Under the pieces are notes generated by a model that saw nothing but the letters and a program-made list of their open reading frames with translations, had not been told where the DNA came from and searched no databases. A stretch of 58,236 nucleotides of DNA from assembly GCA_019115945.1 (NCBI GenBank), contig DXCO01000005.1, forward strand, positions 1 to 58,236, in the 5' to 3' direction. Of the stretch, positions 39,713 through 44,134 are shown piece by piece. The translations under genes were made by a program, and so were the position numbers. The stretch is from Candidatus Borkfalkia excrementavium. GTDB taxonomy: Bacteria; Bacillota; Clostridia; Christensenellales; Borkfalkiaceae. The stretch's first letter is position 1. Every line of letters starts with the position of its first letter.

Positions 39713-41659
39713 TTATGGCGCGAGCGGTACGGGCACGCCCTGCGCGTCGTACTCCCACTCGCCGAGCCAATAAATATGCGGCGATACGTTCGGCGGCGCC
39801 CAATTTACAAAAGCCTTCGCCCAATCATAATAATCGTGTTCTATGCAAGCAAAGACCTCGGTCAGCGCGGAACAGTAGCTAAAAGCATTCAAATAGATGT
39901 CTGTCACGCTTTCGGGAATTACGATCCGATCCAAAGACGTACAACTGTAAAAAGCAAACGCCCCGATCCGTTCGACCCCTTCGCCGAGATCGACGCGCGT
40001 AAGCCCCGTACACGCCTCGAAGGCATACATGCCGATTTCGATGACGCTGTCAGGAATTTTGATCTCCGTAAGGCCGAAATGCCAGCGGAACGCCCCGTTG
40101 CCGATTGCAGTGACGCCCTCCTCGGGTATGACGGAATTTTTGCACCCTGCGATCAGCAGTTTGTGCTCCCGATCGATCAGGCAGTTGCCCTCGGCATAAT
40201 ACCGTTCGTTCCCCTGTTCGACGGTGATGGACGCCAAAGCGTTGCAGCCGGCAAAAACGCCGCCCATTACTTCCGTTGCAGCGCCCGTTCCGATCTCGCC
40301 GATCTCCTGCACCCCTGCGGGGATCTCGATCGCTTCCAATGCCGTGCAGAATTCGAAAGCGCTGTCTCCGATACTTGTAAGGCTGTCAGGCAGAGAGATC
40401 TCTGAAAGAGAAGAACAGCCGGAAAAAGCAAATCTTTCGATCTTTTCCAACCCCGCGGGCAGAGAAACCGTCGCAAGCGAGGTACAATCTTTAAAAGCAG
40501 AACCCCCAACAGAACTTACCCCTGCGGGGATCGCAATTTCGCCGAGGGCAGAACAGCCCGAAAACACGCTGTCCATGATGACGGTCAGCCCCGCGGGCAG
40601 CGAGACCTCTTTCAACCCTTCGCAGTTTTGGAAAAGTTGTGAGGGGAGCGTGCCGACTTTTGCGGGGACGGAAACGCTTTGCAGGGCAGAACACCCGTAA
40701 AACGCGCAGCCGCCGAATGTTTCCAGATTTTCCGGCAGGTCGACAGAGACAAGGGCGGTGCAATTGAAAAACGCATCTCCCTCGACGGATACGATGCTGT
40801 CCGGAAGGATGACTTCTTCGAGCGCGGAACAACTTGTAAACATTCCTTCGGGCACTTTCATCATCCCTGCGGCCAACTCCGCCTTTTTCAGACTTTCACA
40901 GCCGATGAAAACATAGGAACCGTACTCCGCTTTTTGCACAAAAATCTCGCCGAGGGCGGAACAGCCTGCAAAAGCGCGGTTTCCGACAGAGACGATCCCC
41001 TCGGGCAGGTTGACCGTTTGCAGATCGGGGCAACCGGAAAACGCCTGATTTCCGATCGATGTAAGCCCCTCGGGCAGGACGACCTCTTCGATCCCCGCTT
41101 CTTCATAAAACGCGCCTTCGGCGATTTGGGTGACGGGGATCTTTTTGAAACTTTCCGGAATCACGATTTGCGTTCCCAGCGCAGTGCCGATGCCCGTGAC
41201 CATATATTCCTGTTTGCCGGGCACGGCGCGGTATTCCAGCCCCACGGTCGCGCCGTCGGGTATGTCGGGATCGGAAGGATTTTCTCCGCGGATATATCCG
41301 CATACGGAACACTCGCCGTCTTTCAATGCATGCACGCCGCGCGCATCCGTAACGTCATCGTGTCCGCAGACCGCCATGTGCCAATGCTCGGTCGCGCTGT
41401 ACGACCACGCTTCGGAAAACAGGTGTCCCGTTTTCGGAATGCTCTCTTCATCCTTCGCGCCGCATGCGCACGAGCGCTCGCGTTTGCCGTTTTCTGTGCA
41501 CGTCGGCTGCTGTGCGACCGTCCAGCCGCTCCATTCGTGGCTGTGCTGCGGCGTCGCGGCGCCGTTTTCTTCGTCGCAAGCAACTAAAAAAGACAGTACG
41601 ACGAGCATCGAAAGACAGACCGCAAAAACCCTCAGCCCTATCCGTTTTTTTTGTCGCAT
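39713..41659 (-). CDS. BspA-like leucine-rich-repeat lipoprotein
   Basis: Starting at the ATG at 41659 the product has 648 residues: a signal peptide with lipobox (LSFLVAC), a Cys/His segment of about 90 residues (HSHEWSGW, CTENGKRERSCACGAKDEE, CSVCGY), then many LRR_5 (BspA/TpLRR) repeats of about 23 residues with the pattern F..C..L..V.LPEGLTSIG. The last 40 residues are non-repeat. Such proteins sit on the cell surface of gut bacteria and bind host or bacterial ligands. The upstream in-frame extension (to 41821) crosses the promoter and is rejected. Confidence 0.93.
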   Translation of the reverse strand: MRQKKRIGLRVFAVCLSMLVVLSFLVACDEENGAATPQHSHEWSGWTVAQQPTCTENGKRERSCACGAKDEESIPKTGHLFSEAWSYSATEHWHMAVCGHDDVTDARGVHALKDGECSVCGYIRGENPSDPDIPDGATVGLEYRAVPGKQEYMVTGIGTALGTQIVIPESFKKIPVTQIAEGAFYEEAGIEEVVLPEGLTSIGNQAFSGCPDLQTVNLPEGIVSVGNRAFAGCSALGEIFVQKAEYGSYVFIGCESLKKAELAAGMMKVPEGMFTSCSALEEVILPDSIVSVEGDAFFNCTALVSVDLPENLETFGGCAFYGCSALQSVSVPAKVGTLPSQLFQNCEGLKEVSLPAGLTVIMDSVFSGCSALGEIAIPAGVSSVGGSAFKDCTSLATVSLPAGLEKIERFAFSGCSSLSEISLPDSLTSIGDSAFEFCTALEAIEIPAGVQEIGEIGTGAATEVMGGVFAGCNALASITVEQGNERYYAEGNCLIDREHKLLIAGCKNSVIPEEGVTAIGNGAFRWHFGLTEIKIPDSVIEIGMYAFEACTGLTRVDLGEGVERIGAFAFYSCTSLDRIVIPESVTDIYLNAFSYCSALTEVFACIEHDYYDWAKAFVNWAPPNVSPHIYWLGEWEYDAQGVPVPLAP

Positions 41660-41879: not shown

Positions 41880-41924
41880 TCGGAAAAATGAATCGGGCGC
41901 AGAACCTTGCGGTTCTGCGCCCGA
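41880..41924 (-). terminator. Terminator of the small RNA
   Basis: TCGGGCGCAGAACC, loop GCAA (minus strand), GGTTCTGCGCCCGA, then TTCATTTTTCC. The 14-base stem is perfect; the T-run is present only on the minus side. Confidence 0.85.
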
Positions 41925-42003
41925 CCCATTATATGATAAGGGGGAAAATGATGAGCACTTTCGGTAACCAAGCGGGAGCCCTTGCGTCTCTCGTTTGATT
42001 ACA
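41880..42003 (-). ncRNA. Putative small RNA with its own promoter and terminator
   Basis: A strong promoter (TTTACA-17-TATAAT, 42037-42009) fires leftward into about 120 bases without an ORF, ending at a perfect 14-base terminator stem (41893-41924). The 5' part can pair GUAAUC with GGUUAC (a six-base helix with one G-U) around AAACGAGAGACGCAAGGGCU. The strings GACGCAA and GGUUACCGA recall c-di-GMP-I riboswitches, but the tetraloop hairpin between AAAC and GACGCAA is missing. It is either an orphan small RNA or a riboswitch-terminator unit upstream of the LRR gene. Confidence 0.55.
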
Positions 42004-42008
42004 CCCTT

Positions 42009-42037
42009 ATTATATTCATTTCTCTATCCCTTGTAAA
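42009..42037 (-). promoter_or_regulatory. Promoter of the small RNA
   Basis: On the minus strand TTTACA (42037-42032), 17 bases, TATAAT (42014-42009). An A-rich stretch just upstream could act as an UP element. Confidence 0.8.
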
Positions 42038-42174
42038 GTATTTATTTTACTTTTTTTTAATTTTTTTTATTTTTTCCCTTTTTCACGATTTTTGTTCATT
42101 ATTCACAAAAATCCCCCTTTTTCTCCCTTTTTTCCCCTTTTTTGTTATTTATTCACAATTATTTCTACCGTTAA
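42038..42174. other. Pyrimidine-rich tract upstream of the small RNA
   Basis: For about 130 bases the plus strand is almost only T and C with some A and almost no G, in runs such as TTTTTTTTAATTTTTTTTAT and CCCCCTTTTTCTCCCTTTTTT. No ORF. On the minus strand it is an A/G-rich tract that may bend DNA or aid the promoter; it also holds the end of the spmAB transcript. Confidence 0.5.
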
Positions 42175-42687
42175 TCAAAGGATTCTGCAAACAAGGCACC
42201 CGATCGCCACCGCGACCAGGTTTGCCGCCAGCGCAATGACGACCGCCCCTGCCGGCGCCTTGTTTTTACTGCCCGCAAAGTAGACGGCGGAGACATAAAA
42301 GACCGTTTCGCCCGACGCATAGACTACGGCGGCGCAGCGGGATATATACGAATCCGCGCCGTATTTTGCAAAAATTTCTGAAAGCACCGCAGTGGAACCG
42401 CTGCCCGAAAAGGGCTTCAAAAGTACGAGTCTGGATATTTCCGGCGGGATACCGAGAAAGGAAAAGGCGGGCGAAAGCGCCTCGTTGAGCCGATCGGACA
42501 GACCGCTCGCGTCGAAAAGTTCGGTCAGGATCAAAATAGCGGCGATATACGGAAAGAGGGAGAGAACAAGCGGGATCGCCCCTTTGATCCCCTCGGCAAA
42601 ACTGTCGTATACGCGCACTTTGCGCAAAGCCGCGATCAGGATCACCCCGATAAAGGCGACAGGAAGAATATATGCCGCCCACGTCAT
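42175..42687 (-). CDS. spmB: Spore maturation protein SpmB
   Basis: The 170-residue membrane protein has five hydrophobic segments and the nucleoside-recognition (Gate) domain signature: KPFSGSGSTAVLSEIFAKYGADS and VYASGETVFYVSAVYFAGSK. SpmB works with SpmA in spore core dehydration. Its start overlaps the spmA stop by four bases. Confidence 0.94.
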   Translation of the reverse strand: MTWAAYILPVAFIGVILIAALRKVRVYDSFAEGIKGAIPLVLSLFPYIAAILILTELFDASGLSDRLNEALSPAFSFLGIPPEISRLVLLKPFSGSGSTAVLSEIFAKYGADSYISRCAAVVYASGETVFYVSAVYFAGSKNKAPAGAVVIALAANLVAVAIGCLVCRIL

Positions 42688-43238
42688 TTTTTTCTCCCGT
42701 AAAACAGGCGCACGAGCAGGACCGCGAACAAAAGGGAGGCGGCGGACGCGATCAGAACGGGGAGGATGACGTCGTACGAAGACGCCGAACCGTATTTTTC
42801 GCGCAGGGATACGACGGTGGTCGGCAAGATCTGAATGCTGACGCAGTTGACGACAAACAGCATCGCCTGCGAATAACCGCTCCCCTTTTCTTCGCCCAAA
42901 AGGCGCATGGCCGAAACCCCCGCGGGCGTTGCGGCGCCGCCCATGCCCAGCATGTTTGCGGACAGATTGACGGCAATTTTTCCGAGCGCGTCCTCTTTTT
43001 TTGTGCCGAACAGGCGGGAAGTGAGCGGCTTTAATCCCCTTGCCATGCCGCGGGTGATGCCGGCGTCTTCCGCGATTTTCAGAAAACCCATCCAGACGGT
43101 ATAGACGGCGGCGAGCGTTACGCCGAGCGCAAGCGCGTTCTGCGCGCCTTCGAGAAGGGCGGGCAGAAATGCCGACGGCGAGCGGATCACGATGAGCACG
43201 GAGGATGCGAGAAAGAGAATGAGAAATGCGATATTCAT
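42684..43238 (-). CDS. spmA: Spore maturation protein SpmA
   Basis: The 184-residue membrane protein is the partner of SpmB: VWMGFLKIAEDAGITRGMAR near residue 48, NLSANMLGMGGAATPAGVSAM, and LFVVNCVSIQILPTTVVSLR. First gene of the spmA-spmB pair. Upstream I see no good sigma-A promoter, as expected for a sporulation gene, but I cannot name the sigma factor site. Confidence 0.94.
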   Translation of the reverse strand: MNIAFLILFLASSVLIVIRSPSAFLPALLEGAQNALALGVTLAAVYTVWMGFLKIAEDAGITRGMARGLKPLTSRLFGTKKEDALGKIAVNLSANMLGMGGAATPAGVSAMRLLGEEKGSGYSQAMLFVVNCVSIQILPTTVVSLREKYGSASSYDVILPVLIASAASLLFAVLLVRLFYGRKK

Positions 43239-43327: not shown

Positions 43328-44134
43328 ATGAAAATGAAAAAGAAACTTTTTAGTTGCATATTACTCGCCGTGTTCGCTTGCGTTGCTTTGTTCTCTTTTG
43401 CCGCTTGCGACAACGGTTCCGGTTACGACGATTCGGCGCTGGTCGATCGCATCGAGGCGCTGGAAGATCAGATCAAAGACCAGCAGGATACTATCAACGA
43501 ACAGGCCGAAACGATCAAAAACCAGGCGACCGCGATCACCGCTTTGCAAACCAGCATAACGGAGTTGCAAACGGCAAAAACCAACTTGGAAGAACAAATC
43601 GCCTCGTTAGAGGATGATAATACCGCAAACAAAACGGAAATCACCACCCTCAAAACAAAAGTTGAGGCCCTTGAAGCCGCAAATGCGAACTTCCAGCAGC
43701 AGATCGACGCTCTGGACACCTCGTCCGACACGTTCGCAGAGAATCTCACTAAACTTACTTCCAACTACAACAGCCTTACCGCCAGCGTTCAGAACGCAAC
43801 ACACATTGAAAGAGTTGTTGTAACAAAAGAAAAATTAAACGAGCAATCTGTTGTAAAGAATGTTTTATTAACACTTACAAAAACAGATAATTTAGCAGTT
43901 ATTGGCTGTAATATTGAATACATTGACTATCCGCCGCTTTTTCAACTGGCCACTTGTGTTACTCAAATTACAGTAAATCAACAGACATCCACTGTAAAAA
44001 TTTCATTAACACGGGCAGATTTAGACACGAGTACTAAAAGTATTACCGGCTCGCAAGTAACAGATATTCTAATGCCTGATGAATCTACCACCAATAAAGA
44101 TTGGAAAGAAATAATCTTTTATACTTTTTATTAA
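43328..44134 (+). CDS. Coiled-coil lipoprotein with an AT-rich C-terminal half
   Basis: The 268-residue product has a lipoprotein signal (LFSCILLAVFACVALFSFAAC) and a long coiled coil at about residues 35-155 with clear heptads (IEALEDQIKDQQDTINEQAE, ITTLKTKVEALEAANANFQQ). The last 110 residues are a compact beta-rich domain with no known motif. From about 43,800 the DNA becomes distinctly AT-rich, unlike the first half and the neighbours. GGGAG suits the second ATG (43334) at least as well as the first. Confidence 0.85.
   Translation: MKMKKKLFSCILLAVFACVALFSFAACDNGSGYDDSALVDRIEALEDQIKDQQDTINEQAETIKNQATAITALQTSITELQTAKTNLEEQIASLEDDNTANKTEITTLKTKVEALEAANANFQQQIDALDTSSDTFAENLTKLTSNYNSLTASVQNATHIERVVVTKEKLNEQSVVKNVLLTLTKTDNLAVIGCNIEYIDYPPLFQLATCVTQITVNQQTSTVKISLTRADLDTSTKSITGSQVTDILMPDESTTNKDWKEIIFYTFY

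Follow-up and report, generated by a model that had tools for sequence, protein, structure and literature searches.

A family of stand-alone small RNAs with a near-invariant complement of translation start sites, widespread in one order of gut Clostridia

The streptococcal csRNAs and the C-rich small RNAs RoxS/RsaE and FsrA of Bacilli and Staphylococci are the closest described systems to the small RNA (sRNA) examined here. As PMC3091779, PMC8186281 and PMC4507080 describe them, csRNAs are encoded by free-standing promoter-to-terminator genes, have two stem-loops or only a terminator, occur as sibling copies, and carry an unpaired stretch complementary to the Shine–Dalgarno (SD) sequence and the AUG. 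In the account of PMC4507080, mutation and compensation in comC support direct pairing. For RoxS/RsaE and FsrA, PMC8216469 describes a C-rich unpaired region that pairs with the SD, in hosts in which Hfq has no global role.

The subject of this article is an orphan class of stand-alone sRNA. Its family is new, belongs to a type of regulator already known, and is widespread in one order of gut Clostridia. It is described from a contig of Candidatus Borkfalkia excrementavium (DXCO01000005.1; the whole stretch of 58,236 nucleotides that was analysed is called the window). The gene is a promoter-to-terminator unit on the minus strand, at 42037-41884, with a predicted transcript of about 120 nt. 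The features of the locus, all on the minus strand, are the following.

42175..43238, minus strand: upstream pair of Gate/nucleoside-recognition genes (Pfam PF07670, the first above the cut-off and the second 1.2 bits below it), which we take to be SpmB- and SpmA-like
42085..42096, minus strand: AACAAAAATCGT box, a possible regulator site, kept at 57-58 nt before the -35 hexamer in aligned genus copies
42041..42084, minus strand: A/T-rich stretch, putatively acting like an UP element; the same place is A/T-rich in genus copies
42032..42037, minus strand: -35 hexamer TTTACA, retained in most genus copies
42009..42014, minus strand: -10 hexamer TATAAT, retained in most genus copies
41964..42002, minus strand: 5' hairpin GUAAUCAAACG...CGCUUGGUUAC, from the predicted fold and consensus pairs in 37 genus copies; the transcript probably starts near 42002
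41930..41956, minus strand: box GCUCAUCAUUUUCCCCCUUAUCAUAUA, unpaired, conserved across copies and complementary to a translation initiation region
41951..41953, minus strand: anti-AUG (CAU), from sequence and conservation
41938..41944, minus strand: anti-SD (CCCCCUU), 6 nt from the anti-AUG, from sequence and conservation
41884..41930, minus strand: intrinsic terminator with GCAA loop, stem 41924-41911/41906-41893 and T-rich tail 41892-41884
39713..41659, minus strand: downstream gene for a BspA-type LRR lipoprotein (Pfam LRR_5) with its own promoter-like site, outside the system and not conserved as a neighbour

The AACAAAAATCGT box fits a strict pattern in 14 of 34 genus copies, with variants visible in the alignment in the remainder; in some relatives it is almost palindromic (ACAAAATTTGT). 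On the plus strand of the window, 43328-44134 holds a lipoprotein-like ORF with a long coiled coil, whose Pfam matches are to coiled-coil families only.

An earlier note on this DNA had read a promoter, a terminator and a second promoter ahead of the LRR gene, and all three are present. The promoter has two hexamers 17 nt apart, with 11 of 12 consensus bases; the terminator has a perfect 14-bp stem, the GCAA loop and, on the minus strand only, TTCATTTTT; the second promoter is TTGACT-16-TATACT (41718-41691). A scan of 4.6 kb found four promoter-like sites where 3.3 are expected by chance, so that the promoter match proves little by itself. In the predicted fold of the 121-nt transcript (-55.4 kcal/mol, z -6.3 against shuffles), a largely unpaired middle part separates the 5' hairpin from the terminator. 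The unit is confirmed as real, and the main evidence is its conservation. A 156-bp query matches 35 of 36 relatives in the same genus, with E values from 1.5e-48 to 1.4e-19, G021 being the sole one without a match; two of the 35 matches are partial (G002, query 21-106, terminator lost; G003, query 88-156, 5' part different). Among 37 genus copies chosen for an exact box, 12 of 27 predicted pairs vary on both sides with pairing kept, and 10 of these 12 are located in the terminator. In copies recovered by BLAST with the whole unit, the 18-mer CATMATTTTCCCCCTTAT is exact in 39/39 and the 25-mer GCTCATMATTTTCCCCCTTATCATA in 37/39 within the genus; the corresponding figures for distant copies are 6/9 and 5/9.

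The family spans much of the order. With at most one mismatch, the 18-mer is found in 160 of 396 order genomes and its reversed control in 2; 22 of 30 loci read from this search have promoter and terminator, and in the other 8 the match is the start of a gene on the other strand, so that 160 carriers is an overcount, made up in part of chance matches. Eight genomes of other families retain 20-43 bases of the 156-bp query (E < 0.01), and nine distant loci mostly combine a promoter and the C-rich box with a leader and a terminator whose sequences differ from those of the window. In the wider class, the 25-mer with up to three mismatches occurs in 10 of 391 genomes, 19 of the 391 being from this order; six of these ten matches lie outside the order, each with three mismatches, five of the six are gene starts, and by eye the full unit is absent from all six. 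When named genomes are searched with an exact 24-mer, promoter and terminator are found at 120 of 122 sites among the matches listed. The carriers include Pumilibacter intestinalis CLA-AA-M10, a named, strain-designated isolate record; NCBI places Pumilibacter under Eubacteriales, and Candidatus Borkfalkia under Christensenellales. An exact 24-mer also stands in a record titled Roseburia sp. (L090), which is either a mislabelled bin or a true carrier outside the group. Some matches belong to something else: three of the many in G232 and two in G274 (L466, L467, L468, L474, L475) were rejected as a different repeat, CATAATGTTCCCCCTTAT or similar beside a GGGGG...CCCCC palindrome, which has several copies, some near contig ends. 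One match in G232 (L469) is a real copy of the sRNA.

What unites the copies is the box. An anatomy set of 176 deduplicated copies, a few gene-start matches among them, shows that the unpaired box GCUCAUMAUUUUCCCCCUUAUCAUA is nearly invariant, while promoter position, 5' hairpin and terminator vary. A promoter score of at least 10/12 is found upstream in 132 of 173 copies against 11 of 173 when shuffled. With transcription taken to begin 7 nt past the -10 hexamer, leaders measure 10 to 83 nt. They fold moderately better than shuffled sequence (median z -1.6, n=120); terminators do so strongly (median z -6.1, n=132). The 5' hairpin changes in sequence and length between families, members with short leaders are unable to form it, and hairpin and terminator sequences differ freely in loci where the box is kept. 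The central 18 bases of the box are on average 82% unpaired (132 folds). In the 20 full-unit loci of the 18-mer search, the bases after the 18-mer are CATA in 20/20; before it stands T in 19, next C in 16 and next G in 13. The frequencies of C, A and T in the anti-AUG are 0.99, 0.99 and 1.00 in 174 copies selected by search pattern; the survey searches demanded the core, and its invariance outside the genus is therefore partly selection. The triplet CAU is lost in two copies of family f16 (L081 and L082); among distant copies, L032 has four C and others show single-base changes. The most variable core position (C 72%, A 28%) lies opposite the base that immediately precedes the AUG. The 3' part, UAUCAUA, varies as little as the SD and AUG parts, a constancy that pairing with varied targets leaves unaccounted for.

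The complement of the box, TATGATAAGGGGGAAAATKATGAGC, has the form of a translation start site: SD AAGGGGG, six bases, AUG, and AGC as second codon. Box-like sequences outside the family are consequently expected to be gene starts, and 18 of 23 distinct non-family near-matches have an ORF on the opposite strand that begins precisely at this start codon; random ATGs in viral loci, as a control, open an ORF of at least 50 aa in 254 of 1200 cases (21%). The 23 comprise 10 viral near-matches, 7 from the 18-mer search chosen as lacking the unit, and 6 from the class search; those failing as gene starts are L268, L276, L280, L282 and L308. L069 is an additional gene start outside this count.

Compared with csRNAs as their sources describe them, the new sRNA is alike in size range, free-standing gene, stem-loop layout, anti-SD/anti-AUG stretch and sibling copies; its unpaired complement of SD and start codon stands between stem-loop and terminator, or before the terminator alone. 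Unlike the CiaR-dependent csRNAs, it occurs in other bacteria and has a longer, near-invariant box with a C5 anti-SD. The CiaR-type repeat TTTAAG-N5-TTTAAG is found in 0 of 176 copies (260 nt upstream, exact repeats only), so that its promoter is not that of a csRNA. With RoxS/RsaE and FsrA it shares a C-rich unpaired region aimed at the SD, the CCCCCUU lying in a mostly unpaired box. It differs from them in that one C-rich box also includes the anti-AUG, and in that Hfq is missing in most carriers; the unit has no match to the RsaE/RoxS model of Rfam up to E 10, and the window has none at gathering level.

Matches to Hfq are found in 43 of 396 order genomes, and none in the genome of the window (89.8% complete) or in the other sampled genomes of its family; two of the genomes sampled in that family belong to its genus. 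Across the order, few genomes combine an Hfq match with the sRNA core: of the 160 that have the core, 7 also have an Hfq match (G044, G065, G075, G089, G110, G129, G193), taking the two 396-genome samples as the same, per their handles. The core matches of G075 and G193 are gene starts, that is, chance matches.

A near-invariant middle that is the complement of the signal for protein start makes silencing of mRNAs probable, by covering the site where ribosomes start. We consider it probable that the gene makes a trans-acting sRNA of about 120 nt whose box pairs with the start regions of several mRNAs and denies ribosomes access to them, mostly without Hfq. A housekeeping-type promoter and a terminator, both its own, would start and end its transcription. 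Between 5' hairpin and terminator the RNA would expose its box, whose roughly 25 nt are complementary to an entire translation initiation region; the box would most likely pair with initiation regions of several mRNAs and block ribosomes there, acting without Hfq in most carriers. This mechanism, an antisense cover over translation initiation regions, likely follows from the anatomy. Analogy likewise makes antisense blocking of initiation likely, as proposed for the streptococcal csRNAs and Bacillus RoxS.

As to which mRNAs these may be, a single near-perfect target common to the genus was looked for and not found. AAGGGGG starts are not enriched in the genome of the window (18 against 20 controls). 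Over 21 genus genomes AAGGGGGA starts are enriched, 246 against 106, a count that includes the sRNA's own complement; of the sites read, 70 of 111 with AAGGGGGA open an ORF of at least 70 aa, as do 40 of 49 AAGGAGGA control sites. Several AAGGGGGA starts belong, as named by eye, to sugar ABC permeases, glycerol kinase and nucleotide-metabolism genes, and a dUTPase and a cytidylate-kinase-like gene recurred among the AAGGGGGA starts. Both of the latter were rejected as candidates: GGGGG is present at 11 of 30 dUTPase loci read (34 genomes with matches) and at 13 of 30 cytidylate-kinase-like loci read (38 genomes with matches), and no pairing beyond it is kept at either.

When 917 start sites from the loci retrieved, grouped into 51 gene families, are ranked by their energy of pairing with the box, an EF-G paralogue (NCBIfam NF009381) comes first. 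Its starts have energies of -27.1, -27.0, -26.8, -26.8 and -24.2 kcal/mol, and that of G004 has -20.6, near the 5% mark of -20.4; the family mean includes an entry of -14.1 from a false start, truncated where its locus ends. With energies shuffled, an equally good best family arises in 44 of 2000 permutations. All six true starts of the paralogue have AAGGG before AUGAGC; among 18 further guessed EF-G start regions, none was EF-G. The members are related, and the start in the window's own genome was first spotted through its match, so the ranking is suggestive only, and the EF-G paralogue is the best candidate target in that sense.

Two further readings of the box concern what it would act upon. 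In the first, which we hold to be rather unlikely, the partner of the box is a protein, or the ribosome itself through mimicry of the anti-SD end of 16S rRNA, and the RNA titrates that partner and pairs with no particular mRNA. Seed pairing usually needs less than about 25 fixed nucleotides, and the box is fixed over that length, including the part beyond the start-site complement; the failure to find a shared target points the same way. The spacing within the box, however, is that of an optimal start site, and its most variable base faces the spacer base just before the AUG, both of which speak for pairing with mRNA. The csRNAs, which have the same layout, act by pairing in the account of PMC4507080. 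The second reading extends the mechanism we prefer: the order-wide sRNA, as an idealised start-site complement, would be a general, Hfq-free brake on translation initiation, with the EF-G paralogue among its conserved targets. Simultaneous action on a very large number of mRNAs, or on initiating ribosomes, would then account for the near-invariance of the box. To this, too, we assign a small likelihood.

Since the strand opposite the box offers a good start site, the conserved element could in principle be a small protein gene, read from AAGGGGGAAAATKATGAGC on that strand or from the sRNA strand itself. This is highly improbable, and was rejected for either strand because reading frames are not conserved: frames on the opposite strand vary from 2 to at least 41 codons and share neither length nor sequence, only 27 of 132 transcripts contain a closed sense frame of at least 15 aa, and promoter, terminator and compensatory changes all lie on the sRNA strand.

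Copy number bears on whether the unit is mobile. The genome of the window has a second copy of the sRNA gene (L028, C1), with 94.5% identity over 292 bp to window 41884-42175, a duplication that begins at the end of the upstream gene and reaches the terminator. Some genomes have two to six copies: G065 has five and G173 a tandem pair, all with the full layout by eye, and G028 also has a tandem pair. The unit is carried, moreover, by one record labelled as unverified bacteriophage (MT835718.1 9797-15825, L267). A mobile or phage-borne repeat is nevertheless a very poor explanation. Gate-family genes, the commonest neighbour of the family, stand upstream in 30 of 35 genus copies and in 37 of 127 others, a conserved chromosomal neighbour in 67 of 162 copies; there is no plasmid match, the exact 24-mer was not found in viral contigs, and none of 15 viral contigs with the 18-mer has the unit by eye. 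In the labelled phage stretch the adjoining ORFs are, by eye, a thioredoxin reductase and a spoIIR-like gene; these neighbours look chromosomal, which makes the record probably a mislabelled bacterial contig.

There is next to no case for a riboswitch, in particular the reduced or variant c-di-GMP-I aptamer in control of the LRR surface gene that the earlier note had considered: likeness to the c-di-GMP-I (GEMM) riboswitch is confined to short strings in the 5' hairpin, whose sequence is lost between families, whereas the free-standing unit has no match to a c-di-GMP family up to E 10, the downstream gene is not conserved, and unit and LRR gene have, respectively, a terminator and a promoter-like site of their own. 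All 11 Rfam matches up to E 10 in the unit and its surroundings score below gathering. By tblastn, 4 of 176 copies have an LRR gene like that of the window nearby, and by blastp clusters 7 loci do; such a gene lies downstream in the same orientation only in the window's copy (flanks of 1.5-2.6 kb).

The other suggestion of that note, an orphan sRNA class, has held up in the form of a family across much of the order; the C-rich unpaired segment that the note had not singled out is its conserved part. Rfam 15 gives no gathering-level match in the window, nor for the sRNA in the loci of 10 relatives. The single hit in those loci, a purine riboswitch (RF00167, 38.5 bits, gathering 37), lies away from the sRNA in the locus of one distant relative (L035 7-86, plus strand). 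A limited literature search found no published sRNA work on this group, no paper for four spellings of the box, and none joining Christensenellales, small RNA and Infernal; PMC8040213 describes 3161 candidate RNAs of human microbiomes, among which an entry for this sRNA is possible.

If the mechanism proposed here, antisense cover of start regions by the box, is true, a group of gut Clostridia that is large and for the most part uncultured would have a widespread regulatory RNA with a clear signature, operating mostly without Hfq. The presence of the sRNA in the named isolate record of P. intestinalis CLA-AA-M10 makes its expression and targets directly testable. Beyond this, the near-invariant box raises the question of what fixes a regulatory seed across an order.
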